Origin: Halichondria panicea
Taxonomy: Eukaryota > Porifera > Demospongiae > Suberitida > Halichondriidae
DNA length: 64,000 bases
Assembly (NCBI RefSeq): GCF_963675165.1
Contig: NC_087377.1
Coordinates: 12,076,632-12,140,631, forward strand
Direction of reading: 5' to 3'
A program made the translations under genes and the position numbers. Shown in pieces: positions 1,818-59,505 of this stretch. Within the stretch, counting starts at the first letter, position 1. Each line of letters begins with the position of its first letter. The notes under the pieces are model-generated. The model was given only the letters and a program-made list of their open reading frames with translations. It searched no databases and was not told the DNA's origin.

Positions 1818-2166
1818 TTAAGGAACTTGAAGAAGCCAGAAAATAGATCTCTTCTATACAAATGTAGAGGTTTATTGCATTTCCTGTTAATGAATAATTA
1901 AAAATGGGGTGGATCTCCAATGATGTCAGAGTTCGCAAGGGCTACTAGGCAATGTAGGAGTGAGGCTAAATTAGTCTCGAGGCCAGACTCCTCCTTAGGC
2001 TCCTTAGGCTAAATACAGGAGTATTCCAATGATATAACATAGCCTGAAAACATTTAAACCTAGTTCTCCATACTCTGAATGGGTACATGCATGTAGTATT
2101 AATTGTAATGTGTGTGTTCTCACTGATGTACTGGTGCACGCAGTGCATACTGTTTTGTATTAAGAA

Positions 2167-2410
2167 AGGAGGAAATAAATCAACTTTTTCTCGTGAATGT
2201 CTTTCCCCCTCATAGGCCAAGGAATACACTTAAAGTGTTTACAGCAGAGTCTAACAACACCTATAGTTGAAGTGTTCTTAGAGAAACCTTATCACTGAAG
2301 ATAAGCTAACCCAACTACCACAAACAGACAATCCTTCTTCTTATAATAACTATCCCTGAAAAGTGACAACAACTGTTACAGGCATCATGCACTAGCAAAC
2401 AACGTGTGTG
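2167..2410. repeat. Dispersed repeat copy, shared with 10.7 and 55.1 kb
   Basis: This segment shares long words with about 10730-10910 and 55100-55300, and more weakly with 47180-47260: an AACCTTATCACT block, a run on ACTACCACAAACAGACAAT, then ATAATAACTATCC and TGACAACAACT. No open frame or terminal structure was recognised. The family is non-coding and unnamed. Confidence 0.55.
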
Positions 2411-2655
2411 TACAGTAACAGTTACACATGCATGCATGCATTTATAAACAACCAGACTACTTCACTTCATAGTCAAACGTAACATGTCATATACTAACTG
2501 CATTTGTAACAGGAACCAACATGTATTTGCCCACCTATAGAGATACATGCTACAGTACCAATTTATAATAGTATTATTATAAATTGCTCAATAACAACAA
2601 TCATTATATTGACAGTTGGCATTGTGTCAAGTGTGTTTTGCAAATAAGTGCACTA

Positions 2656-3028
2656 CAGTGGTACTAAAGAGAGTAGAACTTTTGATTTTTTACGTTTTTG
2701 TGAATATCTTCTAAACAAAATGTGATTGGATCGATTTGAGTGCAGGTACTGAAAGTTTAACTATTGGCGCTTCCATTGGACCACCACCTGTTACATCATA
2801 GGACATCATCATTCCAAAATGGCTGCTAGAATAATTATGTGTACATTGAAAATATGAAAATATGTTAGGCATGTTATATGTTTGAGTAAAGATCTGAAAT
2901 TTGTTGTGCAAGTACATCATTACCTTTCAGTGCCTATACACTCAAATTGATCCAATCACATTTAGTTTAGAAGATATTCACAAAAACGTAAAAAATCAAA
3001 AGTTCTACTCTCTTTGGTTGTTGCACTG
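2656..3028. mobile_element. MITE with long inverted repeats, TA target
   Basis: The two ends are inverted copies of about 95 bp. The left arm reads CAGTGGTAC then AAAGAGAGTAGAACTTTTG, and the right arm is its complement ending at 3028. TA dinucleotides flank both ends (2654-2655 and 3029-3030), as for Tc1/mariner-type insertion. The centre is about 150 bp with no transposase coding. It is therefore a non-autonomous element of 373 bp. Confidence 0.75.
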
Positions 3029-3702
3029 TAGATAGAAAGTTTCATTGAAGGTTTCTAGCCCCTCTGACAGTATTGTGATAGTTACCCTTAGCCTGCTATG
3101 TTAACAAAAGACCCACAGCCTGCAACAGTGTGGATGACAATCGTTAATTGAACAGAATGAAAGCTGACAAGAGCTAGCTATAGCTCTGTGTATGACTTTT
3201 AATACTTTGTCAGGATTATTTTCTCTGGTATTATAGGAAATCTACTACACCACTAATTTACCATAATTGGGCAAGGAAGGCCAATTAAAAACCAAGAGTG
3301 TGGCTTCTGCACATAACTAATTGACCATTTGGGCAAGGCCTAATTATGAGTGTGGTGGCTTCACAGAGGAGGTATGACATGCAGGAGTAATAGTCTAATT
3401 ATTATATAAGACTTGATTAAACCTATAGGCCCACTGAATGGAATGTAATTACAGCTCTCTATTACTCCTGCTTGTCCTATGTCCTCTGGTGGCTTCACCT
3501 ATTTAATGTTTGCACTCCTGATACAACTAAAAGACCTAGCTACTCTAAAGACAAGATACAAGTTTCTTAATCAAAACTATACCAGCACACTAACTTCAGC
3601 CTGACACTTTTTCTTAAAGAGGAATGGGGAAAACTTACAACTCGATTGCTATGTAGATAGGAACGGACGCACTATTATAGTACATTTAATTTGTACAACT
3701 AT

Positions 3703-4200
3703 CATGAAAGCATCGCGGGTGCTGATATCTGTGCCAAAGCTTTACGGCATGAAGCTACTAGTTATACATACACATAATTATCACATTTGATGCAGTGAAT
3801 GGCGCAAACTGAGTAGGAATTAATCGAATGATTGTTGCTAAGTGGGATACCTCGAAGTTTAAATGTTAAAGTCCATAATTAATGGCTGCTGCTCTCATGA
3901 AATGGTGCAACTTTTTGCAGCTCTTTTCTCACTTTTGTCTATAGCTACACCAATAGCTATATGTATAGCGTTCTAGTGCAAAACTAACTATAGTATATAA
4001 GTAGAGTAGCAACACTTTGATCTATGGAGAAGTTTTGCTATGCAGTATTCTGAAAAGGCTGCAATGGCATTATAATTCAAGAATAAAGCAAATCTATATA
4101 CAAATTGAAATCCAAGAAAACGTGAGGTACTTAGGTGTACTTCTTAATTTTCACTGCACTTGATTGACTATTGACAGACACACAAACACAGTCCAGCGGA
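3703..4200 (+). repeat. Dispersed repeat family, copy 1
   Basis: This is similar in order and wording to 35628-36290, and to a fragment at 48715-48865. Shared blocks include GGTGCTGAT, CCATAATTAATGG, TAGCGTTCTAGTGCA, GTAGAGTAGCAACACT, AAAAGGCTGCAATGGCAT and a tail of CACA-type microsatellite. No coding potential or terminal inverted repeats were seen. A SINE-like or degenerate element is possible. Confidence 0.6.
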
Positions 4201-6024: not shown

Positions 6025-6724
6025 TAATAGTTAGACACTGTTTTGGAGGTGTCTATGGGATTTAGAAGCCCAAAGGCACTGATTTAGTATCCCGAGCATA
6101 ACGAGGGTACTAAAGTGGCTGAGGGCTTCTAAATCACACGGACACCGACAAAACAGTGTCTAACTCATTTAGATACTAGTGCACATGCGCAAACCGCTTG
6201 ACTACAATACAATTATTTGACAACGGAATACTAGGTATACTAAGTAAATTTACAGGTACAGTAGAACCTCGATTATCCGGCCCTCCATTATCCGGAACCT
6301 TGATTATCCGGCTTGGCAGTTTTCTTGTTATCAGATCAGAAAATAGGCGTGTCCCTCAAACGCGCATGCGTGTTGCAGCTGTTACCATGGAGACATGCCT
6401 GCTTATCTTCTCCGCATGCGCATACAACCATGTGGCACTGCTGTTTATCAATAAAGTGGGTGGATCAAGGTGTATTCGATTATCCGGCATATTCACTTAT
6501 CCGGCCTGCTTCTGGAACCAAGGTGTCTGGATAATCGAGGTTCTACTGTATACTAAGTCCCATAGTATACCTGCTTCCCGTGTACTTCCCATGTACTTTC
6601 CATGTAGATCTTATCCACTTATAATCTTGTACCAAACATGTCTGGGGAAATATCAGAGGGAATTATCATAGTTATCCCCTTTGGGCTTCTAAATCCCATA
6701 GACACCTCCAAAACAGTGTATAAC
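6025..6724. mobile_element. Inverted-repeat element interrupted by a pogo-type MITE
   Basis: The left end (AATAATAGTTAGACACTGTT, GGAGGTGTCTATGGG, TTTAGAAGCCCAAAGG) is matched at about 6674-6724 by its complement. A second, more diverged complement at 6105-6166 shows that the left part also folds on itself. The pogo-type MITE at 6257-6551 lies inside, so it inserted later. Nothing inside is coding. Confidence 0.6.
6257..6551. mobile_element. Pogo/Tigger-type MITE, copy 1
   Basis: The ends are CAGTAGAACCTCGATTATCC on the left and the inverted TCGAGGTTCTACTG on the right, the classic pogo/Tigger terminus, next to TA. The interior has a second inverted set of TTATCCGG motifs and GCGCATGCG palindromes. 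Near-identical copies lie at 20584-20876 (opposite orientation) and 40765-41044. It encodes no transposase and must have been moved in trans. Confidence 0.85.
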
Positions 6725-7944: not shown

Positions 7945-10300
7945 CTCAGTGGTATCGCCACTGCACAACTTCCTGTAAAATTAATTACAATGGGCGGAGT
8001 TCATAAATTTGCAATGCCAAAGAACGCTTTCGCTGCCCATGTTTGCTGATGTTCTACAGGAGTTTGGGCCACAGATGAGACTGAGAAGTAATGGTAAGCT
8101 AATAAAGGAGTATTATATAATGTATAACTGAAGTCAAAACAAGAAACCAACTATCCTGCGAGTAATAATGTGCTATAGTATTAGGCCAACATTTGAAGAT
8201 TCATTTATCAACTTTGGTTGGCCCTGGTAGCACTTTGAAAGTTGATACATCGCTGAAATTTGTTTTATGTGTTGTCTAGTATCTTAAGTACAGACTGTAT
8301 AAGTTTTGAAGCATAATCCCAGGGAAGCTGGAAATGGCCCCAATGTGAATGACATGTAGTATTCATTAAACATAGCTGACATACATTAATATACAAACAC
8401 ATCTTCATTATCATTGTCTGGTCCAAACACTTCGTTCATGATTTCGTTTGTTTCTTCATCTTCCTCACAGTCTGTCTCAACATAGTCATCTTCAGAATTA
8501 GAATGGCACTGCTCTGATAATACAAGATCGTGTACATCATCCTCTTCAAGTAGGTGATTACTCTGTGTATTCATACAGTTTACACACTTACAGCCAGGCC
8601 CACACCTTCTTTCCTGTTTGAAACATTTGCATCGTTTGTTTGTGCAACCAGTCTTGCACTTGCACCCGGATAATACATATTCCACTCTTTCCTTTGACTT
8701 TGTCAGGTTTTCTGGAGAATCCCATTGAATCCCCAGTTCTCCATTTTCTCGCTTCCATCCATGTGTAGTGAGAGCTGAAATAGGAATTAACAAGGTGAGC
8801 ACATGCATAAGTATCAGGGTATAATGTGTGTACCTGGAAGGTCCATGTCATTTTGTGTTGCACTGTTCCACATTTGAAGTACCCATAAGCATCTCTTCCA
8901 GTGTAACGCCAGAGCTTCGGTATATAGATGGTAAATTATGGCTTTCTGTATCTGCCCTTAGCCAGATAGTCTTTCTGATTACTTGTAACCATTCTTCATG
9001 GTGTTTAAGTGGGTTAACAATACCAATTGATTGGTACAGAGCAATTGGTGTAGGGTGTTCGAATGCCGATGTGTGTTTCTTAAAATATGCACAACCCACT
9101 AGACGTAAGAATGACAATAGTGCTGAGGAGGTCTCAAGAATTCCCATGCTGAAATGCATATAACATGAAAGGCAAAGTATGCTTTCTCTAGATAAGTCAG
9201 AGGGGTAATTGATGACTTCCCTCAAGTAGGCGTTCACTACATCTGGTGACGTACAGTGTCTGTTAAAGTGTTGTCCTTTATGTGGTTTAATTTTACAGGA
9301 CTCGCATGGTAGTCTATGAGGAGGATGCAAGGTAGTGTACAATGTGTTGTAGTGATCACGGCAGAGACCAACAGCCACCTGGTCATCCTCAACTGTAAAA
9401 CATGCTACTTTTTGTTGCAGCACTTCCTCAATCTCTTCAACTGAGGCAAGTTTTGTGGTTTTACAAAGTTTTTCGTTGCAAATATGTATACTACATTTCA
9501 ACGTCTCCTTGACAATTTTTGGTTTCCATCTCGGTTGAAAGTTGGGATTATTACTTATGCTACGTTTTATTTGCTTTGAGCAACTGTAACAAATACAAGC
9601 ACTTTTGTCTATAGACACACTTTCCACTTTTAACAGTAATGAATATTCATTCTCACTCAACTTTTGGACGTGTGTATATTTCTTTACTGTTTCCATACAG
9701 AGACGACAGGGTCCACAAGAACCTTCGTGGAACGCATTGAGTCTGGCCATATACACTGCTGATGATTCTGTATACTGTGACAAATTTGATGTGTGATGTA
9801 TGGCTTTTAAACATCATTATTATTCATTGCTCATTCTTGTGTGTGTTTACAATTGTGTGTACATAGTATTTTTATGTCATCTTTGTACATCGATATCTCG
9901 GAAAATATACAACATACATGACTGGAAATTTGCTTAAATAATTGGAAATTTCATACTGTTTCTTTTAGTAGTAATAAGTGTGGGTTACCTTGAGGAAGCT
10001 GGAAATGGTCCCAATTGAAATGACACCAAGTCAATCTTGGCTTCAGACCACACTTTTGCAATTTACAGAGAACTAAATTATCTATCTGCGTGCAATTTTC
10101 TTGTGGTTATTACATGCATGAGCAGCAACTATGATGGTGAAATTCATGTTAATAGGTCAGTGTGTGCATAAGATACAGAGCATAGTATTATGACTTAGTA
10201 TACTGAAATTAGTAAATTTCCCGTAAATTTTTTTTCTGTCAATTGCAGATAAATTTGTGTACTATTGCAGTACTTCCGGTGCAGTGGCGATACCACTGAG
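7945..10300. mobile_element. 2.36-kb element with hairpin terminal repeats carrying a CXC-protein gene
   Basis: The two ends are perfect 22-bp inverted repeats beginning CTCAGTGGTATCGCCACTG. Each repeat is itself a hairpin (CAGTGG, five-base loop, CCACTG). Outside the ends is TTA on both sides (7942-7944, 10301-10303), a probable 3-bp target duplication. Inside lies one minus-strand gene (8386-9750) for a cysteine-rich CXC protein, and two direct copies of GAAGCTGGAAATGG at about 8323 and 9994. No DDE transposase, integrase or reverse transcriptase is visible. The element is either non-autonomous or uses an unrecognised enzyme. Confidence 0.75.
8386..9750 (-). pseudogene. Cysteine-rich CXC (tesmin/TSO1-like) protein gene, frameshifted
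   Basis: Two exons are seen: 9750-8834 and 8774-8386, with a clean 59-nt intron (GTACAC...TTTCAG). The N-terminal part has CGPCRLC and CICYSC zinc-finger-like clusters and further Cys/His pairs (CNEKLC, CESCKIKPHKGQHFNRHC). The second exon encodes a CXC-type cluster, GCKCKTGCTNKRCKCF then CGPGCKCVNC, followed by an acidic tail. The frame breaks near 8922: the downstream half (EALALHWKRC, WVLQMWN) runs in the next frame, consistent with an extra ATAT. The open frame reaches 9783 only through a TTG; the first ATG is at 9750. CXC domains bind zinc and DNA, so a role as the element's DNA-binding protein is inference. Confidence 0.7.
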
Positions 10301-10689: not shown

Positions 10690-13600
10690 TTGTGTGAAAA
10701 GCACACCTCATGTTCACTTTTAGTGTTGGCTTAAAGGATCGAGACTAAAACCACCATTTAGTTGAAATGTTAACGTTATTACAGAAACCTTATCACTTAA
10801 ACAGAAACTATAACCCTAACTACCTACCACAAACATGCAGACAATCTATCTTGAGTTCTTATAATAACTATCCCTTAGAGTGACAACAATTAACTGCATG
10901 TATAATAGACATCAACATTTCATTGCACTATAATAGTGACCATACAATGTGTGTGTACATACAGTATAAGTTAAACATAATACTGGAAACTTCCTATAGA
11001 GCTACAAACCAACCTCATCACTAACACTTGTAGCACAAAAATGTTACATGGAGCTAAGACAAAGTAGGTGACCTTATTACGCACCTCATTTTGTCTACCG
11101 CATGCACTCATCAGTCTAGAGAAATACCTTTATCACATGCACACACCCTAATTTATTATTCAAAAAATAAAAGGCACAGGCCTATAATTATAGTCACATG
11201 CACAGACCAGGTGAGTGCAAGCTGATTGAGCAGTACATTCACAGAGTGCATGGTAAGTCTATGTTTGAAACCAAATTTGGGCAAACCATGCAAATCCATG
11301 ATAATTATTTCCGCAGAAAAAATGTGTTAGTATAGTGGGATAATAGGGAGTCTTTTTACAATTTGACACATACCAGGTATAAAATGATGGCTTCTACGCA
11401 GTCTCACTAAATCCTATAGTCCATAAAATTAATAGAGTCCATGCAGGAACAGCTCGGAGGTGTCTCTTGAGCATGCACTCTCTTATTCTGTGATTTAAAA
11501 CTGTGTATACATGCAGAGAAAATACATAATAATTATTTTAGAGCAGAAAAATGTCATAATCTACATTGCTTACACATCTGTGACTAGCTAGCTGTCAATG
11601 GAGTACCACATAGCTTTGCACAATTCTGTTAGCTCCAATTTAACAAGTAAATGTTATCGTGAAACACAGATGGATGTGAACACAGCTAAACCATAAGATT
11701 GTCTAGTCAGCAATGCAATTTAATTATGAATTCTTAGGGTTCAGTTTAGACTTGGTGCATATATAGGTACAGCAGTTTTAAGCACCTTTGCAACATATGA
11801 ACACACAAGCATGAAACCACAATGTACTATTGTAGTAAATTGTGGTTACTTAAATTTGGTGCATGGGAGACCATCTGCAGTACTGTCCAGTGGTGTACTA
11901 CAGTACTAAAAGTAGGAACCAGGGCCCTAACACTGCATGCTTGCTTTTTGCCCAATGCAAGCTCAATTGAATCAAGCTTTTAATTGTACGCACATTTTAT
12001 AGTACACCAATCAATCCCAGAACATACAAAATTTTTTAGGGGACTACCCCAAAACCCCAATATGTGTGCACATGCGTATCAGCTCCCCTTCCAAACTATC
12101 CATGCTCTCTAAGTGACAACTCTCTTCCTACACCACTGCTATCACTGCTGTCAATAATTATGGTCACATTTCAAATTGCTAGCTATTTTTTCTGTGTGAT
12201 ATGAGATAGACCAAGTACACACCTCTGTCTGGTACACTGGCCATTCTCCATATCACGTCTGTGGAGTAGGCCTTATACTGCAACCTTGTATAGCTAGATC
12301 TATAGTTGTTGTGTTAGTACATTGGCCAATTTTGATTTGATACTAGTAAAGAAACCGCTCAAGTAAGTCCTTGTAGTCCATGTTTACATTGTGGGTTTAC
12401 ATTGTGGTTTACCTATTTGTGTGTGTGTGTGTTGCAAAGGTGCTTACATGTAAAACTGCTGTACACTATGCTGTTTTTTCACCCATTATGCTGTTCTTTT
12501 ATGCACTTATTTTTAAAACTTACCCAATTATGCTTTTGAAATTGACAGCAAAAATTCATCCTTTTGAAACTGACCCCAATATGATTTTGAAAGTGACATT
12601 ATACGTTCAGTAATTTCACCCTTATTGGATACAATTGTTGTAACATCACACTAGACAGCTGACTGTATACAATTATAGTTATCTATAACTAGATATTTGG
12701 CTTGACGAACTGAAAACAAGTTACAAAACTAGATCAGGCATGCATATAAGGACCTGCTACTGTACAGTAAGTCTGTAAGACATCATGTTTGAACGAAGTG
12801 CCCATGCATTGTAATTCTTAAATTATGGCATCAAAAAATTGATTATCCCTATTATCTCGACTGTCCCTATTATGCTCAAAACGGCTATATACATGCAGTG
12901 GACTCGGGACTATAATGACATTGCTCAATATTCAGTGAGTGACGTAAAACCATGTTCACTGGAAACCACTGCACTAGCTACTCCTGATTATCAGCCGATG
13001 ACAAACTGTCAGTTTTCCAAGATGGGAATCGTCTGACGTTCCTTTTGTGACTGTCTGCAATATCTCTCCTTTCAATGCACATCGTGTTACTGATCGCAAT
13101 TGCACGGCGACACTAGAATCACTAATAAATTTAACATCTATATAATAGCAATTATGCATGGTCACTGTGTCATGTGGGGATCATGCCCCTGAGTATCTTC
13201 AATAATCCGACTGGTTGGTGAGTGTTTCGTCCATTATCTATAATTATATACTCTAAACATTACATCTATAATTGGTAGAATATGATTAAAGAACTGAAAG
13301 ATCGTTGCTCTCCCACTTCCAGTATATGGTAAGCCAAAGTCAGGATTGCCTAGCACTCTTTGAAGTGCTCTTTCCAAAATCAGCAGATAATTATGTTCTG
13401 TGCCAGACTAGAAAATTTGGCCCAGACTGTGCAAAGTCAACAGTAAGATTGCGATTAAGTACTTGACATGCCTTCGAGGCATCTCGGGACACGTAGTTGT
13501 GTATGTAGACAAGGAAATCATAATTATGTAGAAACATCTTGCAGTGTAACGTTGCCAGAAGCAGTTCGTGGTTCTTCAGTAACAACACTCCAATAACCCA

Positions 13601-13935
13601 TTTCATTTTTTAGCATGGACATACTGTTCTTAACATTGTCCTTTTCAGAATTCGACAGACTATTGAAACTTCTTCGAACGACTTGTGTTCTTGTTTCACA
13701 ATTTGTTCCATTCCAACCAAATGCACACTCACTGCAATCGACTCCATAAAAGTTTTCTGAGCAAATACAAACAGGCCAAAGATATCTGCTATCAATCGTT
13801 CCTTTCATCGTGGGTGCATTTCTTAGAACTGCGACAATTTCTGGTTCTGCACGATCACGTTAACCCTCGATGCTTTTGATTTGACGTTCATACAAGCTCC
13901 TTTACCATTGCAGTTGTTAGGACAACACATTTTAC
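10690..13935. repeat. Segmental duplication, derived copy
   Basis: This stretch is collinear with 55080-57180 followed by about 58545-59200. The shared path includes GTGTGAAAAGCACACC, CTACAAACCAACCTCATCACT, AGGAACAGCTCGGAGGTGTC, the ATGCAGTGGACTCGGGACT block, and then tyrosinase sequence. Relative to the other copy, about 1.37 kb (the 3' half of the tyrosinase gene) is missing at a junction near 13280-13300. Insertions and deletions of tens to hundreds of bases are scattered through it. Apart from the tyrosinase remnant it is non-coding. Confidence 0.85.
13290..13935 (-). pseudogene. Truncated tyrosinase pseudogene
   Basis: In minus-strand order, pieces match residues about 38-240 of the intact gene at 57494-59308. 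They are the CCPNNCNG cysteine cluster, then (after frame changes) IDSRYLWP, the EGF-like ICSENFYGVDCSECAFGW, the SEMGYW-equivalent NEMGYW, FLVYIHNYVSRDAS and SGPNFLVWHRT. The signal peptide, the whole CuB site and the C-terminus are absent. The second CuA ligand region reads FAQSG in place of FAHSG, so one copper-binding His is lost. Several frameshifts separate the pieces. This is a dead partial copy created with the segmental duplication. Confidence 0.9.
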
Positions 13936-13959
13936 TCAACGTTTCATATCCACGTCAGT

Positions 13960-17700: not shown

Positions 17701-20700
17701 ACACAACCACCATGCAGTGTTATATACCTTTGTTTTTACACCCACTCTTGTTCAGGTGTAACTAACGATGCTGGCAGGACTCCTCTTGACTATGCTACAC
17801 AGCATGGCTACACTGAAATTGTTGATTACCTAAAGTCTCTACCACAACTATGTAAGATCATGAGTATACACAGTGTGGTCCAATACAGTACTCTCTCTAT
17901 ACAGCTGCTGTGACTGGAGACAGTGACTCCTGGAGTGAGGAGAACGGACCACCACCAACAAAGAAACAAAAAGGTGACTTGCTATAACTTGCACTTGTAC
18001 GTAACTATCTCATTCTTCCTCCAGTGACCTCTGACCCTCTCTCCGGTCAACAGACACCCAGTGCTGGCAATAAACAACCAGAAATAACTGGTAGGAGACT
18101 CTATTATAGCCCAACAATAATCTGCTATAATTAATTATCGTGCATGGTAGATATTACCTGTTTCCCATCTTATATGTACGTTACATGACCTTCAGATACT
18201 CCAAACGGTCCCAAACAACTTCCTTCCACTGACAAAACCTCATCAAGTGAGTAATATATCGATCAGTGGTCGTATACAAAGAATGTATGACTCAGAAAAA
18301 ATAATAGTACCATGATGTGCTCTGACACTAAGGAATATCCATTGAAACTCTCAGGATACTTCAGGGAACAAATCCCATGTACCCTGCTATAGGGTGTACA
18401 TTCATATACCAGGGTTTCATCTAGGATTAAATGTTTGGAGGGGAAGGTTTGGGCGCGTGGAAACACACGACGCACAATTTTGACCACACCCCCTATTACA
18501 TGCAAGTGGATGTAGTTACATATTGCACATCATAGACATTACTATAATGTGATGATGTCATTATTATACAACATTTTTGGGGGGAGCTAAGTATTTTTAG
18601 GGAAGAAGGTTCACCCCTGCCCCCCTCCCATTAGATGAAACCCTGTATGCCCTAGGGTACGTTGGCTGTGGTCAGCCTAAAGCGCCTACCCTCCGCCCTT
18701 TAAGGACCCTCTCTTTTAAAGAAGACTACCGAGACAAAATCTGTGGAAAGCACAAAAATGTGCAGGGTGTCTGAAGTTGTAAATGTGGTTTGTCAAGTGC
18801 GAGCACACGCACACAAAATATGCACAGTGCATGCATGGCAGGGATCAAAGAGTGTTTACTACTACTCAGTTATAAATGGGTTGGATAACAGCTTCTAATT
18901 GCTTCTAATCAATCGTATTCAATCCAATACACCCATTACATATACTGTCGCGACTTGCCGTTCTCGAATTTATGCTTAATATTTCGTAATTATGTATTAT
19001 AGTCATGTTAGTATGAACTATGACCCTGTGAATGAAAGGTTTTACCATAATACAGAAGACTCTCGCTATTCCGGCTCTCTGAAGTACGGCCACCTCGATA
19101 TACCGGCCATTTGGCTTGGCACGGAATGCTAGTTATAATTATGTTTACTGCACAAAACTCACCCTGAAGTACGGCCACTCACTATTCCGTTTACCGGCCA
19201 GTGCTGGCTGTCCCAAACAAGGTTTCTATGTAATTTTATACGTGTATTACGGCCGGATATGACATTTTGAGTGTGGTTTAGCAAATTACACTTAAATAGA
19301 TAAAAAAATGATTCATTATCCTTCATTATCCTCGAGACAAGAACAGCAAAATTAGTCATTAGATTCGAGGTAAGGTTGTTTTTAAGCCGCGGCTATTTCC
19401 TGAGATACAGCTACCTCGCTATTCTGGCCAAGCTGCATGGTCCCAAGCAGTGGCGGATCCAGTGCAGGGCACAAGGGGCATGTGCCCCCCCTTTCTGACC
19501 AACTCGAATAAAACTAGCTCACGAAGTGGGTGTGGCTTAGAGCAGCTAGGGCAGAATAGCAGACGATCTCTAGTTGTAGACGTTTGAAGCTGAAGAGCAA
19601 GATGATTTCATCCATTTCTGCTATCTCCTGCTACTATGTATGTCATGCTGTCATCAATCAATCCATGATCAGAAAAGCTACACTGGCTGGGCTTTAAAAA
19701 ACTGTTGACCTTTTTTTTTAGTAAAAATTTTCTTCAAACTACCCCCCCCTTTTCAAAATTCCTGGATTCGCCTCTGCCAAGGGTGACCGGATTAACGAGA
19801 GTCTAGTGCATCGCCGAGTGTACAGAGAGCAGACAGACTATCTCTGGCAAGTTCACAACTGGACATACTGGAGAAAGCAACATGAAATTTCCAGATTAAC
19901 GGATGTCATTAATTGATTATGAATATCATTAACGAAGACACTTTTGTACATGTATTATGATATTACTTATTAGGGAAGCTTCTAGCTAGAATATCATAGT
20001 GAGTCTCTTTGTTTTCTTTGCAGTGGCCATTAAAACAGCGAGATATTAAGCAGTTTAAAATTAAATGATTGCTGATTCAGCAAAGCAAGTTAGATTGTGC
20101 ATGTGAAATAGTCTATTCTACTGACAGCCCTTCCTTTTTTAAGTTTGCCATTATTTTTGTCCGGATTTGTGAGGTTTTAGAGTAAAGGGGTCCAAATTAG
20201 CGAGGTTCTACTGTAATGATTCAATTCCACGGCAATTCCTAAAAATGTTTCTGTACATCACTATGGTTAAGTAAATGAGCACAATAATTATTCTAGCAAT
20301 AATTATGTACCAACTGCTGGCACTCTAATCAGTTCAAGTGATTATTGAGAGAAAGAAAAAGGGGATTCCCCAGATTCTGGTGCATACTAATGCATGCGCA
20401 CTATTACCATGCAATAGGTACCAGGCCGTATTTTAATCGGCCTTAAATCGAGGCTAATTGTATACTAGCCTCGACCCCAGGCCGATCTGTCTCCAATTGA
20501 ACGCTAGGTCGCCTACTAGGCCTGGTATTGATTGTATTTGGGCGTGATCTGGGCGTGGTTTTTTAATAAATTGACTCTGTGGTACAGTAGAACCTCGATT
20601 ATCCGGACACCTTGGTTCCAGAAGCAGGCCGGATAAGTGAATATGCCGGATAATAAAATAGATAAACCACGCCTTGATCCACCCACTTTATTGATAAACA

Positions 20701-23700
20701 GCAGTGCCACATGGTTGTCGGCGCATGCGCAGAAGATAAGCAGGCATGTCTCCATGGTAACAGCTGCAACGCGCATGCGCGTTTGAGGGACACGCCCATT
20801 TTCTGATCTGAAAACTGCCAAGCCGGATAATCGAGGTTCCGGATAATGGAGGGCCGGATAATCGAGGTTCTACTGTACAACAAAAAATGAATCCTCCAAC
20901 AGTGGTCTTCAACAACAGCCTCTGGGGCAGTATACAGCAGGAAATACTTCCCAGAAGACACTTCTTTGGCAGTGGCAACCAAATCTTTGTCGATTCCTTT
21001 ATATTGCTACTGAGGATGGCAGCAGAAACACCTCTATTGTTTAGACTCCTGACCTGGTCAATCATGAGTCTCATGATGAGAGATACAAGTGGAGAGACAA
21101 TTAACAAGAACAACACTTTCGTCAACAGGAGGAGCCTTGGTCCTACCTAGCTTGTAGTCCATTAAAAAGGGTAGCAACTGATATAGCAGAGAGACTTGCC
21201 ATACCCCGTTGGGAACCAGATAAACACGTCCCTTCCCTCAAACAGGAGCTTGAGAGCCTGGGCCTGTTCTGCCATGAGAGTGAGTCCATCTTGCTTCAAA
21301 CAAGACAACGCGTTGCATGCCATAGCTAGCTAGCTATAAATTGAGAACATGACACGGAGCTAAATTACTGTAACTTTTACGGGAGTAAAATGCCTCTACG
21401 TACACCTTTAGTATTACAGAAAAAAAGCAGGAAACAAAGTGTGAAGAATCTCTGCTTTTGTATCCGGTTCTTCCTGCCACGCCCAGATACAATCAATACC
21501 AGGCCGTATTTTTCAACTTTGTTCTATTAAAAAAAAATCGGCCTGGGACCAAGGCTAATTGTATACATGCCTCAAAAACACTGGCTTTACAATAATATAT
21601 GTACATCTACATCGCTTCAACTTCATAATTATAGATAGATATCTTCTTTTAATTATAAAATGAAATTGAAAGTGATACAGTATATACATTTATAGTGTAC
21701 TTTTGCGCAAATCATGCAAAATATACTGTGTTTCATTCTATGCCTATACATTGTATTATTCCAGAATCAAAGGCAGTCAAGAAGTCTGAGCAAGCTCTTA
21801 ACGAAGCCATGAAGGCTGGATTTGTCCGTGTGAACATTACTAATCTACTGTTTTTCGGAATGGCGGGCACTGGTAAAACCTCCACTAAGCATCTCCTTCT
21901 GGGACTGCCTCCTCCTGTAGATCGAAATAGCACTCCATTAGCTAGCACAGCAGAGAGGATATGTATTCGACAAATTCGTGACACTACAAAGATACAAATG
22001 GAAGCTCAAGAAGATCCCTCCAGAACATGGAAACCAGTAACTAGTGATGACCTACAACGCATTGTTGCTGATGCTATTAAATCTCATGTAACCAGCTCAG
22101 ATTCTGCTATCCCACAAGAACTCAGCATTGCTCTGAAGCAACTTGAACCTATCAATGAATCAACTACGCCAGTTGATGCAACTCCTTCAACTTCAAGAGC
22201 AACTAAACCATCAGTAGCTGGAGCAAAATTAACGCAAGAAGGAAAAAAGACTAAATTCCTTAGCACTGTTTCGAATGTAATGGCGAATATTCAGCGATTT
22301 TCTGATGCTGATCGTACTGCTGTTCAAGAAAAGTTTGGATCTCATTGGATCTATATAATCGATAGCGGTGGGCAACCACACTTTCATAATCTACTGCCCC
22401 TCTTCATGCCCAAGATTTCTGTAGCTTTGTACATTCTTCGTCTCTCTGACTGCCTAGACGATCATCCACTGGTTGAATACTACAAGAACAACAAGCCAGT
22501 TGGTGAAGCTTTCAAGTCACATCTCTCAGTTTTGGATAATTTCAAGTATCTCGTGCAGTCCATTCAATCTCACAGTGAAAACTGCAAGCTGGTATGCATT
22601 GGTACTCACAAAGACCATCAATCTGAATGCAAGGAAACATTATCCGACAAGAATAAAACTTTGTTGAATTTTGTGGAGGATGATTGTCTTAAGAAGTTGA
22701 CTATGTTTTTCAATTTGGGGAAAAAAGATGTCGTATTTCCGGTGGATTGCAAGCACTGCGATTCTGACAGTACGAAAGTGGCAAAGACAATTCGTGGATG
22801 TATTCACAAAGCATCTCAAGAGCTGAATAAGAATGAAATCCTGGTCCCTTTTTGGTGGTTTGTTTTGGAAATTATTATCGAGAAGGTTTCAAACGATGAA
22901 AACAGAAAAGTCTTAAGCAAGACCGAATGTGTAGAAATTGCAAAAACACTACATAATTTTCACGAAGTTGCACTTTGTGAAGCTTTAAAATTCTTCCATG
23001 ATCATCACATATTTCACTATTATCTTGCTATTCTACCAAATGTGGTATTCTGTGATACTCAAGTACTTCTTGATAAAGTAACAGAGCTTGTCGAGTATGC
23101 TGCATATGTGCGAAAAAGTGATGATCCAGCATCTGGGTTTGGAACCTGGTTAGATTTTACCGATAAAGGAATTATTACGATTGAACTTTTATCTGAGAAT
23201 AATTTTGAAAAGCACTACGTCGATGGACTCTTTGCACCCACTCATCTCATTGAAATATTCAAGCACTTGCTGATAGCCACACCATTTCGTTTATTCTCAC
23301 AACACGTCACTCAAGATAAGCGGTTCTATATGCCATCACTTCTATCCTTGCTCCCACCAACTCAAGTCAATGCCAAACGGGTTGATTTGCTTAAAACCGG
23401 TTTAATCTCACTGGTTTTACACTTCAAAAGCAACTGGCAGTGCTGTGGAGTGTTTTGCTGTCTCCAAGTGTATTTGATCAAAGAATGTGAATGGGAAATT
23501 GAAATGGAAGATCATCAGCCGAGTAGAAACTTTGTACAATTTGTTCATCAAAACCGAAACTGTACTATCACGCTAATTGACGGGTTTTCATTTCTCGAAA
23601 TTCATTCCAGTAGTGATCGAAAAGACATGTTGTCGTTGATATATGCTAATATTCACTCTGGTCTTCGATCTGCTTACAAAGCCCTGAAATACACGTATGA

Positions 23701-27530: not shown

Positions 27531-27543
27531 GTATGAGGATCTC

Positions 27544-30500
27544 GGTACTTGATATAAGACTCACGAATATAGCTGAATCAGCAATAAACTACAATATAAT
27601 TATAGTAGTTCCTATACAGTTCCACAGTTCCATGGTTCCATATAGTTCCATAGTTTGTTCCAAGCGTTCCATGGTTCCAAGCGTTCCATGGTTCCAAGCG
27701 TTCCATGGTTCCATGGTTCCATAGTTCCAAGCGTTCCATGGTTCCAAGCGTTTCATGGTTCCATGGTTCCATGATTCCATAGTTCCATAGTTTGTTCCAA
27801 GCATTCCATGGTTCCAAGTGTTCCATAGTTCCAAGCGTTCCATGGTTCCATGCATGGTTCTATGGTTCCATAGTTCCATGCATGGTTCCATGGTTCCAAG
27901 CGTTCCATGGTTCCAAGCGTTTCATGGTTCCATGGTTCCAAGCGTTCCATGGTTCCACAGTTCCATAGTTCCAAGCGTTCCATGGTTCCACAGTTCCATG
28001 GTTCCACAGTTCCATGGTTCCATAGTTCCATGATTCCATAGTTCCAAGCGTTCCATAGTTCCAAGCGTTCCATGGTGGTTCCAAGCGTTTCATGGTTCCA
28101 CCGTTCCATGGTTCCATGGTTCCATAGTTCCATGGTTCCAAGTGTTCCATAGTTCCATAGTTCCAAGCGTTCCATGGTTCAATGGTTCCATAGTTCCATG
28201 GTTCCAAGCGTTTCATGGTTCCAAGCGTTTCATGGTTCCAAGCGTTCCATGGTTCCAAAGTTCCAAGCGTTCCATAGTTCCATGGTTCCTAGTTCCAAGC
28301 GTTCCATAGTTCCATGGTTCCATAGTTCCAAGCGTTCCATAGTCCCAAGCGTTCCATAGTTCCATGGTTCCATAGTTCCATGGTTCCATAGTTCCAAGCG
28401 TTCCATAGTTCCAAGCGTTCCATAGTTCCATGGTTCCATAGTTCCATGGTTCCATAGTTCCATGGTTCCATAGTTCCAAGCGTTCCATAGTTCCAAGCGT
28501 TCCATAGTTCTAAGCGTTCCATAGTTCCAAGCGTTCCATAGTTCCATGGTTCCATAGTTCTAAGCGTTCCATAGTTCCATGGTTCCAAGCGTTCCATGGT
28601 TCCACAGTTCCATGGTTCCATAGTTCCAAGCGTTTCATGGTTCCAAGCGTTCCATGGTTCCATAGTTCCAAGCATTCCATATAGTTCCATGGTTCCATAG
28701 TTCTAAGCGTTCCATAGTTCCATGGTTCCATAGTTCCAAGCGTTCCATAGTTCCATGGTTCCATAGTTCCAAGCGTTCCATAGTTCCATGGTTCCATAGT
28801 TCCAAGCGTTCCATAGTTCCATGGTTCCATAGTTCTAAGCGTTCCATAGTTCTAAGCGTTCCATAGTTCCATAGTTTCAAGCGTTCCATGGTTCCATAGT
28901 TCCATAGTTCCAAGCGTTCTATGGTGGTTACAAGCGTTCCATGGTTCCAAGTGTTCCATGGTTCTATGGTTCCAAGCGTTCCATGGTTCCTACTGTTCCA
29001 CAGTTCCAAGCATTCCATGGTTCTTACTTTTCCATGGTTCCAAGCGTTCCATGGTTCCTACTGTTCCATGGTTCCATGCAAGCGTTCTATGGTTTACTGT
29101 TCTATGGTTCCTACTGTTCCATAGTTCCATAGTTCCTGCTGTTCCATGGTTTCAAGCGTTCCATGGTTCCTACTGTTCCTGGTTCTAAGTGTTCTATGGG
29201 TCCAACTTTTCACTTTTCTTTCATGGTTCCATGGTTCCTACTGTTTAGTGCATGGTTTCTATACTGTTCCTCGTTCCCAACGTTCCATGGTTCCCACTGT
29301 TCCTTTAAAAATGTTCAACAATCATGGAACGCTTGGAACAATGGAATGCTTGGAACTATGGAACAATGGAACACTTGGAACCATGGAACAGTAGGAACTA
29401 TGGAACGCTTGGAACCATGGAACCATGGAATGCTTGGAACCATGGAACTATGGAACCATGGAACGTTGGAACTATGGAACCATAGAACCATGGAACTATG
29501 GAACCATGGAACTATGGAACTATGGAACCATGGAACGTTGGAACTATGGAACCGTAGAACCATGGAACTATGGAACCATAGAACCATGGAACTATGGAAC
29601 CATGGTACTGTGGAACTATGGAACCATGGAACTATGGAACCATGGAACGCTTGGAACTATGGAACCATGAAACTATGGAACCATGAAACCAAGGAACTGT
29701 GGAACCATGGAACTGTGGAACCATGGAACTGTGGAACCATAGAACCATGGAACTATGGAACTGTGACCCCATGGAACCATGGAACGGTGGAACCATGGAT
29801 CTGTGGAACTATGGAACCATGGAACTGTGGAACCATGGAACGTTGGAACTATGGAACCATAGAACCATGGAACCATGGAACTGTGGAACTATGGAACCAT
29901 GGAACGCTTGGAACCATAGAACCATGGAACTATGGAACCATGGTACTGTGGAACTATGGAACCATGGAACTATGGAACTATGGAACCATGGAACGCTTGG
30001 AACTATGGAACCATGAAACTATGGAACCATGAAACCAAGGAACTGTGGAACCATGGAACTGTGGAACCATGGAACTGTGGAACCATGGAACTATGGAACT
30101 GTGACCCCATGGAACCATGGAACGGTGGAACCATGGAGCTGTGGAACTATGGAACCATGGAACTGTGGACCCATGGAACGTTGGAACTATGGAACCATAG
30201 AACCATGGAACCATGGTACTGTGGAACTATGGAACCATGGAACGCTTGGAACCATAGAACCATGGAACTATGGAACCATGGTACTGTGGAACTATGGAAC
30301 CATGGAACTATGGAACTATGGAACCATGGAACGCTTGGAACTATGGAACCATGAAACTATGGAACCATGAAACCAAGGAACTGTGGAACCATGGAACTGT
30401 GGAACCATGGAACTGTGGAACCATGGAACTATGGAACTGTGACCCCATGGAACCATGGAACGGTGGAACCATGGAGCTGTGGAACTATGGAACCATGGAA

Positions 30501-30967
30501 CTGTGGACCCATGGAACGTTGGAACTATGGAACCATAGAACCATGGAACCATGGTACTGTGGAACTATATGGAACCATGGAACTATAGAACCATGGAACT
30601 ATGGAACTATGGAACCATGGAACGCTTGGAACTATGGAACCATGAAACTATGGAACCATGAAACCATGGAACTGTGGAACCATGGAACTGTGGAACCATG
30701 GAACTATGGAACCGTGGCCCCATGGAATCATGGAACGGTGGAACCATGGAACTGTGGAACCGTGGAACCATGGAACCGTGGAACCATGGAACCATGGAAC
30801 GGTGGAACCATGGAACTGTGGAACTATGGAACCATGGAACTGTGGAACCATGGAACTGTGGAACCGTGGAACCATGGAACCATGGAACTGTGGAACCATG
30901 GAACTGTAGGAACTACTATAATTATATTGCTGATTCAGCTATATTTGTGAGTCTTATATCAAGTACC
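27544..30967. mobile_element. Foldback-like element: inverted termini around two opposed 8-nt satellite arrays
   Basis: The termini are inverted repeats of about 65-75 bp (left GGTACTTGATATAAGACTCA, right ending GAGTCTTATATCAAGTACC), differing by a few bases and a short gap. Inside, 27610-29306 is a tandem array of GTTCCATR-type octamers, with a CGTTCCAAG variant. From 29323 to 30910 the same satellite runs on the opposite strand (ATGGAACY), meeting at a 16-bp spacer. The right array shows higher-order repeats of about 340 bp. AGGATCTC flanks both sides (27536-27543, 30972-30979), a likely 8-bp target duplication, although four bases intervene on the right. This architecture resembles Drosophila FB elements. 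Long open frames on both strands follow from the octamer and are not taken as genes. Confidence 0.8.
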
Positions 30968-30999
30968 AACCAGGATCTCACTATATTGAAATAGCTTAA

Positions 31000-35627: not shown

Positions 35628-36290
<663 letters not shown>

Positions 36291-40764: not shown

Positions 40765-41044
40765 AGAACCTCGATTATCCGGCTTGGCAATTTTCTTTTT
40801 AATCAGATTTAATAATTCAGAAAATGAGAGTGTCTCTTAAATGCGCATGTGCGTTGCAGCTGTTACTATGGAGACAGGCCTGCTTATCTTCTGCGCATGT
40901 GCAGACAACCATGTGGCACTGCTGTTTATCAAATAAAGTGGGTGGATCAAGGCGTGGTTTATCGATTCAATTATCCGGAATATTCAGTTATCCGGCCTGC
41001 CCCTGCCCTGGAACCAAGGTGTCCGGATAATCGAGGTTGTACTG
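40765..41044. mobile_element. Pogo/Tigger-type MITE, copy 3
   Basis: This is a diverged third copy: the left end AGAACCTCGATTATCCGG lacks the first inner repeat, and the right end is ATCGAGGTTGTACTGTA. The interior (GCTGTTACTATGGAGACAG, CCATGTGGCACTGCTGTTTA) matches copies 1 and 2. It is non-coding. Confidence 0.8.
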
Positions 41045-41133
41045 TATAGTTTTGGTAAAGGTCATATAACCTATAACCATGATGAACATAATGTAGGTGA
41101 CTCTTTTTAAAGCACTACGACATGCACTGATTG

Positions 41134-41299: not shown

Positions 41300-41518
41300 G
41301 ATATAATTGAGTGGGTGGTAGTATGATTAAACTAACAACATAACTATATCACCAAGTATAAAGTTTAATGTACGTGTGACAAAAGAATGATAATTACATG
41401 CAGATACAATGTCACAGGATTGCAAAATAAACCCACAGCCAGTTACCTATCAAGAGTTTTCTTACTGGGTATACAAATGTATGTGTAGTGTAAATTGTTT
41501 TTTGCAAGGTCACAATAG

Positions 41519-44087
41519 GGTCATTCCATATCAATTCAACGAAATTTAAAATGTGACGTCTTCAGAATTCCACGAAACTTGGTACATGTGTGAGGAATGG
41601 TATGGTAACATATCAGAAAAAATTTTGGGTTTGTAAACAATAATTATGGCTTCTGAGATTGAGTTAATTAAAAAATGCAGAAATTCTCCACTTTTAGAAA
41701 CTGGCTGCTGTTAGTTAAACTGTAACTTTCTAACCATTAACATTCAAGACTAAGAATGTATATCATGTTGTTGCCTAATAAATTCTGCATCATTTGGTAT
41801 GTTGTACGGCTTCACTTAATAAATTTAGGTATTGCATCTAATTAGTATCCTTCGAACTCTGACTTCTCGAAAAGCGCTGTTTTTTTCCCTGTAATTTTTG
41901 TGTATCATGTTCCTCATACCATTCTCTTGAAGTGTGACAAGTTTGGTTTTGGGATTCCAATGGGATCATGAGATATGTTGTGGGATGTAGTGTGATTTGG
42001 GCAATATTTGTGGTTTCAGAGAATAAACAGTCCTTCTTTGTTGTGTAATGTACCTAAAACATGTGTGCTAACTTTCCTGAACTTATGTTATCACAAGGAA
42101 GAATTCGAACTTTTGGCCGAGTGACATTTTCAGCCGGGGAACTGTAAAACGACTGATAGCTAACAGGGGCGAATCAGGGGCGTAGCCAGACTTTTGAGAC
42201 AGGGGTTTCTGCAGAAAAATCAGCGGCGCAATAGCGCCGCGAAATTTTTGTGGCCACGCCCACTTCCGGTACCACACCCTCTTGATTGACTATTGTTCAT
42301 GACTTTTTTACATGTTTGTGAGAAGCTAGCTAGCTATAGACGTAACATACTAGGCATGCAGGTGCCAATTGTGTATTGCTAGTCTAGCTGAGCAACAATT
42401 AAATGTCATTTACCTGAGAGGTTTCATGTGGCTGAGATTGTTCTAAACTCCTGAATAAAGTTGTGCTTAGAGCTGAGTCTGAGAATACTGGAGCATTCAG
42501 GATTGATACTAGATCTAGAACTTAAGTCTTGGTCTTCTTTGTTTGAGGTAGCTAGCTAGCTGAGACTAACTAGCTGAGACAAAGCCAAAGTGAAACGCTT
42601 CACGGTGCTGCTCTGATTATTGATTTGCAGCCACGTGTGAAAAGATGGGCAGGGCTGCATGATTTTTCAATTATAGGGAGCCCTGCCCAATTTTCTCAGC
42701 AGCTCCTGGGGGGGTTTCTGGGCCAGGAAACAATGGTAGCTACGCCCCTGGCTAAAACAAGTTTACAGCGACCATACAAGCAGCAAAATAATACTGACAC
42801 CACGCCAGCTATTTGATTGAGCGGCGACAAGCATATCAGCCATTTGAGTACTGCACTACACTACAGAGGACTATGAGAGAGAGCAGCATCATCTTGAACA
42901 ATAATTTCTTGTTTTCTCAAACGATTTCAGACACATGCAAACTACACCCATCATAAATTATTTGAACCATCTCTAGCTACTGATACAGTATAGTACTGCA
43001 GTCAGAAGATGGACACTGAGTAATCTCAGTAGAAACTGAAATGCCACCAGAGAATATTTCGTGATTGGTTTGCACAAAAAAATGGGTGGTTAGCTAGGGT
43101 GTTTTCCAAGTAAAACCACACAACTCACTAGTGTGTGTACAATTTCTTTACCCTCACGGGCCATAATGCAGCTTATTCAAGTATCCCAGCCTCAGAAATA
43201 GATAATTTTATACGTTGCCTACATGATTTTATTTTTTTAAACAATTGATCATCAAATCAGAACAGGTCGAATTTATCCAAAAAGGAGATTAAACTGCATC
43301 AGAAATACTGACCAAACATTTGAGCTAGGCTTGTTAATGTTTTTAAATGTTAATGCTAATGTTTTATACTGCTCAACTTTTATGAAATCACCATTGCTAA
43401 AACTAAAACGTACAATTGTTAGCTTGAACGTAGGTAATGTCGCTCATCAACTTAAAACCTACGATATATTGCTAATTGCAATATTGCCACAACAAAGGGC
43501 CTCACACACAGCTTACTTACTAAGGAAAAGTGCACAGTAACAATTGGGAATGCAGAAAGGCTTTGCAAATTTTTTTAAGGACTGTTTATTCTCTAAAACC
43601 ACAAATATTGCCCAAATCACACTACATCCCACAACATATCTCATGATCCCATTGGAATCCCAGAATCGAACTTGTCACACTTCAAGAGAATTGTATAAGG
43701 AACATGATACTCAAAAAAGTACAGGAAAAAAACAGCTTTTTTTGAGAAGCCAGACTTCAAAGAACACTAATTAGATGGAATACCCAAACTTTATCGAGTG
43801 AAGCCATACAACATGCCAAATGATGCGGAATTTCTTAGGCAACAAGATGATATACATTCTTAGTCTTGAATGTTAATGGTTAGAAAGTTACAGTTTAACT
43901 AACAGCAGCCAGTTTCTAAAAGTGGGGAAATTCTGCATTTTTTAATTAACTTAATCTCAGAAGCCTTATTGTTTACAAACCCAACATTTTTTCTGGGATG
44001 TTATCATAGCATTCCTCACACAAGTTTCGTGCAATTCTGAAGACGTCACCTTTTAAATTTCGTTGAATTGATATGGAATGACCCAAT
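41519..44087. mobile_element. 2.57-kb element with ~560-bp inverted termini
   Basis: The left arm 41519-42085 begins GGGTCATTCCATATCAATTC. It recurs inverted at about 43520-44087, which ends GAATTGATATGGAATGACCC. Matching landmarks inside the arms include TTAGTTAAACTGTAACTTTC, GGGATTCCAATGGGATCATG and its inverse CATGATCCCATTGGAATCCC. The interior holds a nested hAT-like element (42175-42750) and non-coding sequence. A solo left terminus with the same outer flank (TTTTTGCAAGGTCACAATA) occurs at 46931-46980. No transposase was recognised. Long inverted arms are usual for Mutator-like and foldback elements. Confidence 0.8.
42175..42750. mobile_element. Nested hAT-like non-autonomous element
   Basis: The ends are CAGGGGCGTAGCCAGA and TAGCTACGCCCCTG, close inverted copies typical of hAT termini. 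It lies between the arms of the larger element. The interior has AGCGGCGCAATAGCGCCGC and GGGCAGGGCTGCATGA segments but no open transposase frame. The flanking 8 bp do not match clearly. Confidence 0.65.
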
Positions 44088-55079: not shown

Positions 55080-58000
55080 GTGTGAAAAGCACACCCCACT
55101 TTTAGTGTTGGCTTGAAGTGTTTACAGCCAGATGATGATCGAGACTAAAACCACCATTAGTTGAAATGTTATTACAGAAACCTTATCACTTAAACAGAAA
55201 CTATAGCCCTAACTACCACAAACAGACAAGGTATCTTCTTATAATAACTATCCGGCCCTTAGAGTGACAACAACTGCATGTATAATAGACATCAACATTT
55301 CATTGCACTATATATAATTATAGTGACCATACAATGTTTGCATGTGCACTGTGGAGAACTTACGGATATGTACTGATAGAACTGCATATTTATACTTTTT
55401 GTGAATGTTCTAGAATAGTGATGTATTGCCGGTTTTTGTGAATGTTCTAGAGAATGTTCTAGATTTACCATGTGTTGTTGTGCAATACCCGGATATAGTT
55501 ATTGTTTTTGTAAGTGGGTGTGTTTATTGCTGTGATAAATTATTGAGAACTTGACAATTAGCGCAAGCAGGCGCTGACATGCACATACAGTAAGTTAAAT
55601 ATAATACTGGAAACTTCCTATAGAGCTACAAACCAACCTCATCACTAACACTTGTAGCACAAAAATGTTACATGGAGCTAAGACAAAGTAGGTGACCTTT
55701 TACCCACCTCATTTTGTCTACCGCATGCACTCATCAGTCTAGAGAAATACCTTTATCACACACACCCTAATTCACACACAATTAAGCATCCCTATTATCA
55801 AGGAATATTTGGCACAGGCCTATATATATATAGTCACATGCATAGACTAGGTGAGTGCAAGCTGATTGAACAGTATACATTCACGGAGTTCATGGTATAT
55901 AAGTCTTGTTCGAAACCAAATTTGGGCAAACCAAATCCATGATAATTATTTCCGCAGAAATAATGCATGTGTTAGTATAGTGGGATAATATGTATAGGGA
56001 GTCTTTTACATGGTTTCTACACAGTCTCACTAAATCCTAGTCCATAAAATTAATAGAGTCCATGCAGGAACAGCTCGGAGGTGTCTCTTGAGCATGCACT
56101 CTCCTATTCAGTGATTTGAAACTGTTTATACATGCAGAGAAAATACATAATAATTATTTTAGAGCAGAAAAATGTCATAATCTACATTGCTTACACATCT
56201 AGCTAGCTGTCAATGGAGTACCACATGGCTTTGCACGATTCTGCTAGCTCCTAACAAGTAAAATGTTATCGTGAAACACAGATCGATGTCAAAACAGCTA
56301 AACCATGAGATTGTCTAGTCAGCAATGCAATTAACCTTCTAACCGTCGAGACTAAAATCCTTAGGGTTCAGTTTAGACTTGGTGCATAGGTACACTATAC
56401 TGCATGTTTTTCACCCATTATGCTGTTCTTTTATTATATGCTTTTGAAAGTGACAGCAAAAATTTGAAACTGACCCCAATAATTATGATTTTGAAAGTGA
56501 CATTACGTTCAGTAATTTCACCTTTATTGGATACAATTGTTGTAACATTACACTAGACAGCTGACTGTGTATAATTATAACTAGATATTGGCTTGACGAT
56601 CTGAAAACAAGTTACTAAACTAGATCAGATCCCTCATCAGGCATGTATATAATTATAAGGACCTGCTACTGTACAGTAAGTCTGTAAGACATCATGTTTG
56701 CAGTGCTGTTGAACAAAGTGCCCATTGTAATTCTCAAATTATGGCATCAAAATTGATTATGCTCGACTGTCCCTATTATGCTCAAAACGGCTATATACAT
56801 GCAGTGGACTCGGGACTATAATGACATTGCATAAACCTCAATATTCAGTGAGTGACGTAAAACCATGTTCACTGGAAACCACTGATGACGAACTGCCAGT
56901 TTCAGTATCTGCCGATGACAAACTGTCAGTTTTCCAAGATGGGAATTGTCTGACGTTCCTTTTGTGACTGTCTGCAACACCTCTCCTTTCAATGCACATC
57001 GTGTTACTGATCGCAATTGCACGGCGACACTAGATTTACTAATAAATTTAACATCTATACAATAGCAATTATGGTCACTGTGTCGTGTGGGGATCATGCC
57101 CCTGAGTATCCGACTGGTTGGTGAGTGTCTCGTCCATTATCTATAATTATATACTCTACATCTATCATTGGTAGAATATGTTTATACCTTTGCCATGCAT
57201 ATACTGTCACAGCCCAGCAGATGGAGTTAATGTTAGTTGGGATCTATAGCTTTATTATGTTTTTTTTTAATCAGTTCAGTTATGTGTTCAAGTTGCAAAT
57301 ATTCAAGGTGTGTGATCAATAAAACTCAAAGGGCTCTAGCTAGGGATCAATGACAAATTTACAGAACTAGATCTATACGTACAGCAAAAGAGACTATAGC
57401 TGGCTATTCTATTGTAAGAACAAGTCATTGTTAAACTTTTTATTTGGGTTTGGGTTTTCAGTTCAGCACATAATTATAAAAAGTTGCCTTTCGCTAATCT
57501 TCGAGTACCAACGTGAGGAAGGCAATGAGCAGGAACAGTAGCAAGCTGGCATTAATTCTCTTGGAACTTGAGCCCGAAGGAGGCCTCAGAGTAGGCCTCA
57601 CTGTTGGCTCAATTGCCGAGCATACCCTCATATCTTCGCTCGAAAGCAAGCAATTTTGCCGATACATTCCAGTATTGGTCGTCAAATCAAATTCAAATCG
57701 ATTGCATTGAGTAGGGCTATCACTGCTATGAGCAGTACATATACGGCATTCTCGGATATTTTCTTTAGTATAGGTACAGTCTGGTATATCTGGTTTGTCA
57801 TTCAGAGTGGCTACAATAAGAGTATCGTACATATACCCCCAGTTCTCACTTGTACTATATTGCTGATTCGGTGTTATAAGAGGAAAAAATGGTACCATGT
57901 AGTCATTCAAATTATGTCCAATATGACCCCCACTGTCAGGTACGTATGGAGGTATTTCACCAGATGGAAAGCCGCGTTGCATCCAACTTTCAAGGATTCG

Positions 58001-59308: not shown

Positions 59309-59505
59309 TTGCCTCCTATAGCACTTACTCTAGTTATAATAAATGTAACACTTTTGTCTAACTATATATGCAAGCTTATGTGTAATGAATATTCTTACCA
59401 AAAGTTGAATGGGTGTGGTGTGGTGATGACTCAATAGCTTAATTGCATGTATACCACGGTATACATTTCGCACATTGCATATGCATACAAATGCACTATT
59501 GATTG

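Follow-up and report, generated by a model that had tools for sequence, protein, structure and literature searches.

The FB elements of Drosophila (with NOF) have long inverted ends that are made of short tandem repeats and vary in length, and their non-autonomous copies occur beside a coding copy. The locus described here lies in a 64,000-nucleotide stretch of the sponge Halichondria panicea (NC_087377.1; hereafter the window) and, compared by description, has in common with FB its repeat-built long inverted ends, their variable length and the existence of both non-autonomous and coding copies. It is unlike the FB description in its strict 8-nt unit and in having only ~ 70 bp of unique terminal inverted repeat (TIR) outside the array, while its coding block, also set against FB/NOF by description, includes OTU-like and CXC-like regions and a partner gene.

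In Tetris, a foldback element of Drosophila virilis, internal tandem repeats expand into satellite-like arrays; its target duplications measure 8-10 bp, its unit is ~ 220 bp, and no autonomous copy was found (PMC4079207). Our element differs from Tetris in its shorter unit, of 8 nt, and in having a candidate autonomous copy. The Tm1 element of root-knot nematodes has composite TIRs with a repeated motif of ~ 14 bp, a coding copy in the family, a Phantom-type transposase with a FLYWCH domain, and 9-bp duplications (PMC3169594). Our element is like Tm1 in its short repeated motif and coding copy, and unlike it in giving no FLYWCH match in the frames scanned and in its 8-bp duplications. Rehavkus and aphid Phantom elements have a minisatellite next to the transposase; in Rehavkus it precedes the 3' TIR and in Phantom it follows the ORF. 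The same source lists an 'Ovarian Tumour Gene' for the cnidarian MuDR-6_HM group and, for MULE-Co, a second ORF of unknown nature (PMC6446971). In contrast to Rehavkus and Phantom, the arrays here are two-sided and opposed, and no PHD finger, FLYWCH or Pfam MULE match is seen in the frames scanned. For Galileo of Drosophila, a member of the P superfamily, multiple transposase-binding sites in the TIRs are reported (PMC3688188); the likeness lies in the long, internally repetitive, foldback-resembling TIRs and the difference in the THAP/P-type transposase, no THAP match being found here. Among the top-ranked results of literature searches, with subscription papers and Repbase outside their range, none was seen to describe this family, or a transposase clade in which every family has a short satellite of its own. 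Foldback elements with internal repeats are an already known kind, and the novelty of the family is not established.

Results

The full element occupies positions 27544-30971 of the window, with ~ 1.7 kb of GTTCCATR octamers followed by ~ 1.6 kb of opposed octamers, and the 8-bp sequence AGGATCTC abuts it on either side (Table 1). Inverted termini of ~ 70 bp, opposed octamer arrays, a short spacer and flanking 8-bp AGGATCTC had all been described in a first-pass annotation, and all are present. The bounds given there, 27544-30967, hold at the left start but end 4 bases short on the right, since the AACC at 30968-30971 belongs to the TIR. Strand order in this copy is strict, GTTCCA (n = 151) preceding TGGAAC (n = 157) with 0 misplaced, and in an alignment of the two arms 89% of the paired columns are identical, with gaps in 13% of columns. 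Higher-order units of ~ 340 bp had also been proposed for the right array, and they are real, with a length of 338 bp (660 bases at 94.8% identity, 29571-30230 against the same stretch at a lag of 338). Growth of the array by unequal exchange, as suggested earlier, is compatible with this repeat and with arm lengths that differ between copies, although slippage fits too. Folded as single-stranded DNA, the 271 nt round the centre gave z = -8.6, with 0 of 200 shuffles as good, and an Rfam search of the window returned no match. The long ORFs inside the arrays were considered as genes and rejected, since the 8-nt unit appears to have no stop codon in any frame and long ORFs are therefore expected in such arrays.

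Table 1. Features of the foldback element and its flanks, in window coordinates
Feature	Position	Strand	Remarks
Target-site duplication, left copy, AGGATCTC	27536..27543	.	
Left TIR, without outer GGTT	27544..27615	+	
Left array, GTTCCATR octamers and 9-nt variants, e.g. GTTCCAAGC	27616..29303	+	TRF row 27619-29204, period 8
Unique centre TTTAAAAATGTTCAACAATCATGGAAC, marking the strand switch	29304..29330	.	5 genomic places, no mismatch
Right opposed array	29323..30904	-	TRF period 8, CATGGAAC
338-bp higher-order repeat in right array, ~ 3 copies	29571..30568	.	
Right TIR, including outer AACC (30968-30971)	30905..30971	-	
Target-site duplication, right copy, AGGATCTC	30972..30979	.	

The window holds other repeats and reading frames. 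A dispersed repeat of ~ 0.3 kb, perhaps a MITE, lies at 6256-6550, 20583-20878 and 40766-41048 (83-91% identity) and contains a 15-16-bp tandem motif resembling GAACCTCGATTATCCGG; minus-strand open frames at 8386-9813 match Tesmin/TSO1 CXC (PF03638, E 1e-5) and perhaps belong to another mobile element. There is a segmental duplication (10954-13937 and 55580-59195, 81-86%) that overlaps a tyrosinase-domain ORF at 57494-59329, an almost uninterrupted (CACG)n tract of 123 bases at 36121-36243, and an inverted repeat whose ~ 0.5-kb arms are 90% identical and separated by 1.5 kb (41515-42035 / 43577-44087). Death-domain, tyrosinase and Ig-like ORFs are also found.

Copies of the element were sought in the 131-Mb assembly of 39 contigs that includes the window. 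The first-pass annotation had taken the satellite to be part of a foldback-type mobile unit, with termini that should recur elsewhere beside arrays of other lengths and 8-bp duplications. The genome bears this out: the termini are not unique to one locus, the left and right TIR queries having 24 matches each, and dispersed copies with TIRs, arrays and target duplications are found. Among the left-TIR matches, 13 of 24 span at least 70 of the 72 bases at 97% identity or above, which suggests a fairly recent spread. Besides the window, 16 stretches were examined, amounting to 15 loci because L032 and L033, which overlap, belong to a single element. GTTCCA arrays of varied length are present at nine of these loci (L025-L031, L032/L033 and L034; ten in all with the window), and in six stretches (L035-L040) the ends are TIR-like but no array is present, so that arrays may be dispensable for movement.

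Eight copies have both ends. Their flanking 8-mers are identical in three (the window, L030 and a 14-kb copy), the chance of an 8/8 match being 1.5e-5 each, and match at 7 of 8 positions in another three (L031, L034 and L027); in two of the latter the mismatch is the last base, which allows the reading of a 7-bp duplication. In L025 the flanking 8-mers do not match and GGTT is missing from both ends. Elsewhere this outer GGTT, absent from the left end of the window copy, is the rule: among the 16 array-bearing ends tabulated for other copies, 13 have it, although 4 of those 16 ends come from L027/L028, probably one duplicated locus. L028 contains 200 N and its flanks are inverted copies of each other; being palindromic about the N run, with duplicated inverted flanks, it was treated as a likely artefact of assembly. 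The region around L027 and L028 (C13:2045386-2064389) shows duplicated, partly inverted flanks around the 200-N gap and is probably an uncollapsed haplotype or a mis-scaffold.

The opposed order of the arrays is strict in all eight two-ended copies, with arm lengths ranging from 127 to 3742. The genome contains 226 perfect triple octamers (reversed control, 0), and 214 of them, including 16 in the set-aside L028, fall inside the ten loci with TIRs and arrays, which argues that the octamer is not a host satellite. The asymmetric 27-base centre motif was found at five loci with 0 mismatches where 3 were allowed (control, 0). When these five copies were oriented by the centre, like arms had more 24-mers in common than unlike arms in all 10 pairs; the excess drops with longer words, to 7/10 pairs at 32 nt (6/10 with the TIRs trimmed) and 5/10 at 48 nt. 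From this sharing between like arms, the copies appear to descend from one two-armed ancestor, their arrays having been altered later.

The 14-kb copy (C1:4676580-4690570) has the same TIRs and a perfect 8-bp duplication, and its arrays measure ~ 2.2 and ~ 3.4 kb. The arrays enclose a 903-aa open frame and, on the opposite strand, a second gene, the partner gene; we regard this copy as the candidate autonomous source of the family; it is the only family-1 copy with an open transposase frame. The frame has no start methionine, the first in-frame methionine standing ~ 120 residues in, so that an upstream exon is needed. With E values of up to 10 allowed, the 903-aa protein matched none of the transposase models in Pfam. 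Nor did NCBIfam, PDB or IMG/VR yield a confident relative: a single-sequence query of PDB gave none, a profile query matched no PDB sequence, and IMG/VR had no match. The protein has a sub-threshold OTU match (PF10275, E 0.002; 18.1 bits, cut-off 24.3) and, as judged by eye, a cysteine-rich CXC-like stretch, while the partner gene carries a P-loop, GPSETGKST; the names P-loop, CXC and SANT-like, and the DDE residues given below, were all assigned by eye.

Used as a query, the transposase gave 28 genome matches that merge into 15 loci. Its best relative, 38% identical (C1:5248812-5251336), sits in an element of ~ 29 kb (family 2, C1:5224683-5253707) bounded by an inverted pair of a different TIR. 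This element has opposed 9-nt arrays (C1, 5225015-5235637 and ~ 5251800 to 5253600) and between them also holds a relative of the partner gene, at C1:5241980. No family-2 target duplication was found, the 28 + 41 nt outside showing that the TIR reaches further out than first placed. Opposed arrays of the family-2 9-nt unit occur as well at C15:3486237-3489552, C3:1126574-1131374 and C2 from 8618657, and a third unit, GTAGCACTG, is opposed on both sides of a transposase fragment at C1:5096335. The opposed arrangement is thereby seen for three units and a one-sided arrangement for two (27/30 nt; GTTGCTCTG); of the 35 genome matches to the GTTGCTCTG 18-mer, 23 are on C23, every one of these in the same orientation, and the other 12 are scattered singly, a distribution that lends no support to an opposed pair.

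Short-unit arrays adjoin 9 of the 15 transposase-related loci, two of the nine being near-identical copies 52 kb apart. At the remaining six no short-unit array was found in the DNA examined; one of these is C17:4103299, where a 65-bp repeat, probably coding, was left out of the count. Control DNA of ~ 120 kb (~ 36 windows) held five tandem arrays with a score of at least 150, none of period 8 or 9, and the comparison of 9/15 with 5/~ 36 gives a binomial value of 4e-5, which is rough given hand counts and unequal window sizes. The inner edge of the family-1 TIR contains GTTCC, from which the family-1 octamers could have arisen, and the family-2 TIR contains ATTACATCAT, similar by eye to the unit ATTACCTAC.

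With long inverted ends made of internal tandem repeats, dispersed copies, variable array length and target duplications, the element is of the foldback kind. As to its superfamily, the 8-bp duplication fits the Mutator-like range, MULE target duplications being given as 8-11 bp (PMC6446971). NCBIfam IS256 matches weakly in the same region of both foldback transposases (E 0.010 and 0.0068; 14.9 and 15.4 bits, cut-off 150), and both keep the candidate acidic residues D221, D290, D312 and E418, chosen by eye. Pfam MULE (PF10551) gave no match to either at E up to 10; scored on the best candidates, it matches 31 other genome places and neither foldback transposase. In the frames scanned there was likewise no match to THAP, to the PHD finger, with arrays standing on both sides unlike in Rehavkus, or to FLYWCH, where the frames may lack an upstream exon. 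For the partner gene there are 18 genome matches, of which 4 lie within 8 kb of a foldback transposase and 9 within 8 kb of a Pfam-MULE match, the latter all divergent, against 0.07 expected. Such pairs of partner gene and Pfam-MULE match are at C2:976674, C2:7740954, C7:2259929, C8:3140267, C9:2870663, C10:5845324 and others. Six of the nine MULE-adjacent partner genes have an identical score, hence they are probably copies of one element, and the six equal-scoring pairs are probably a recently multiplied two-gene MULE. Taken together, the weak IS256 matches and the 8-bp duplication point towards Mutator-like elements. As Pfam MULE is unmatched in both transposases, the foldback element is not filed as a MULE; it would seem to work like one, as far as the evidence goes, without being classed as one.

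Discussion

The TIRs, the arrays of other lengths elsewhere and the target duplications together argue that the satellite is part of the mobile unit. We are therefore fairly confident, on sequence grounds, that 27544-30971 is a non-autonomous foldback DNA transposon supplied by a related two-gene element. A DDE-type transposase from such an element, for which the 14-kb copy is the candidate, likely acts in trans; it would likely recognise the GGTTGGTACTTG ends, excise the unit in a cut-and-paste manner and join it to an 8-bp staggered target, both arrays travelling along. The arrays would later lengthen or shorten by unequal exchange or slippage, giving the 338-bp repeat and the differing arm lengths. 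It can be speculated further that the octamers, which start at the GTTCC of the TIR inner edge, serve as extra subterminal transposase-binding sites, and that each related family amplified its own motif. A broader proposal, which we put forward tentatively and regard as rather doubtful at present, is that these elements form a DDE-type clade sharing a divergent OTU/CXC-type transposase, often with a partner gene beside it, and that the opposed satellite proper to each family, of 8-9 nt (or 27-30 nt), would represent the repeated binding sites of its own transposase, unit and transposase changing together.

Whether the satellite has such a role is where the alternatives weigh most. The ends alone may suffice for movement, the arrays being passive by-products that grow by slippage or unequal exchange within a palindrome; the higher-order repeat of 338 bp, the spread of arm lengths from 127 to 3742 and the TIR-like stretches that lack arrays all sit well with this. 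Set against it are the short-unit arrays of different units at 9/15 transposase loci, compared with 5 (score at least 150) in ~ 36 control windows, and the strict opposed order in 8/8 two-ended copies, and we see the matter as evenly balanced. The source of mobility is a separate question. Were the unit moved by another transposase, the two genes of the 14-kb copy would be captured cargo, which would agree with there being a single family-1 copy with an open transposase frame, and with a transposase that is above the cut-off of no curated transposase model in a genome where 31 places match Pfam MULE. However, the second family, with other TIRs and another satellite, has the same two genes between its arrays, so that capture would have had to happen independently twice, and both proteins keep the four candidate acids picked out by eye; cargo capture thus seems improbable to us.

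Two further readings would remove the transposon altogether. An array with a higher-order repeat is satellite-like in itself and could be an ordinary host satellite inverted by rearrangement, but the TIRs, target duplications, dispersed copies, common centre and near-absence of the octamer array elsewhere make an immobile satellite hardly credible. Equally far-fetched, in our judgement, is a chimera in which the assembly joined an array to its own reverse complement. L028, on C13, palindromic about 200 N with duplicated flanks, is what such an error would look like, yet 7 of the 8 two-ended copies, the window included, have no N in the element and have distinct left and right flanks, six two-ended copies have matching duplications (8/8 or 7/8), and the unique centre recurs in five loci without mismatch.

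The preferred reading, a non-autonomous foldback transposon served by a two-gene relative, bears on where satellites come from. Foldback elements have been suspected as satellite sources, as in the case of Tetris, whose autonomous partner was not found (PMC4079207). In the present genome, non-autonomous copies occur together with a candidate autonomous one and with related families whose short satellites differ. Our findings suggest that elements of this kind are able both to generate and to transport satellite DNA of their own, and two questions become testable: whether the satellite has a function, as a set of binding sites, or is a by-product, and whether satellites are created by transposons or only carried by them.
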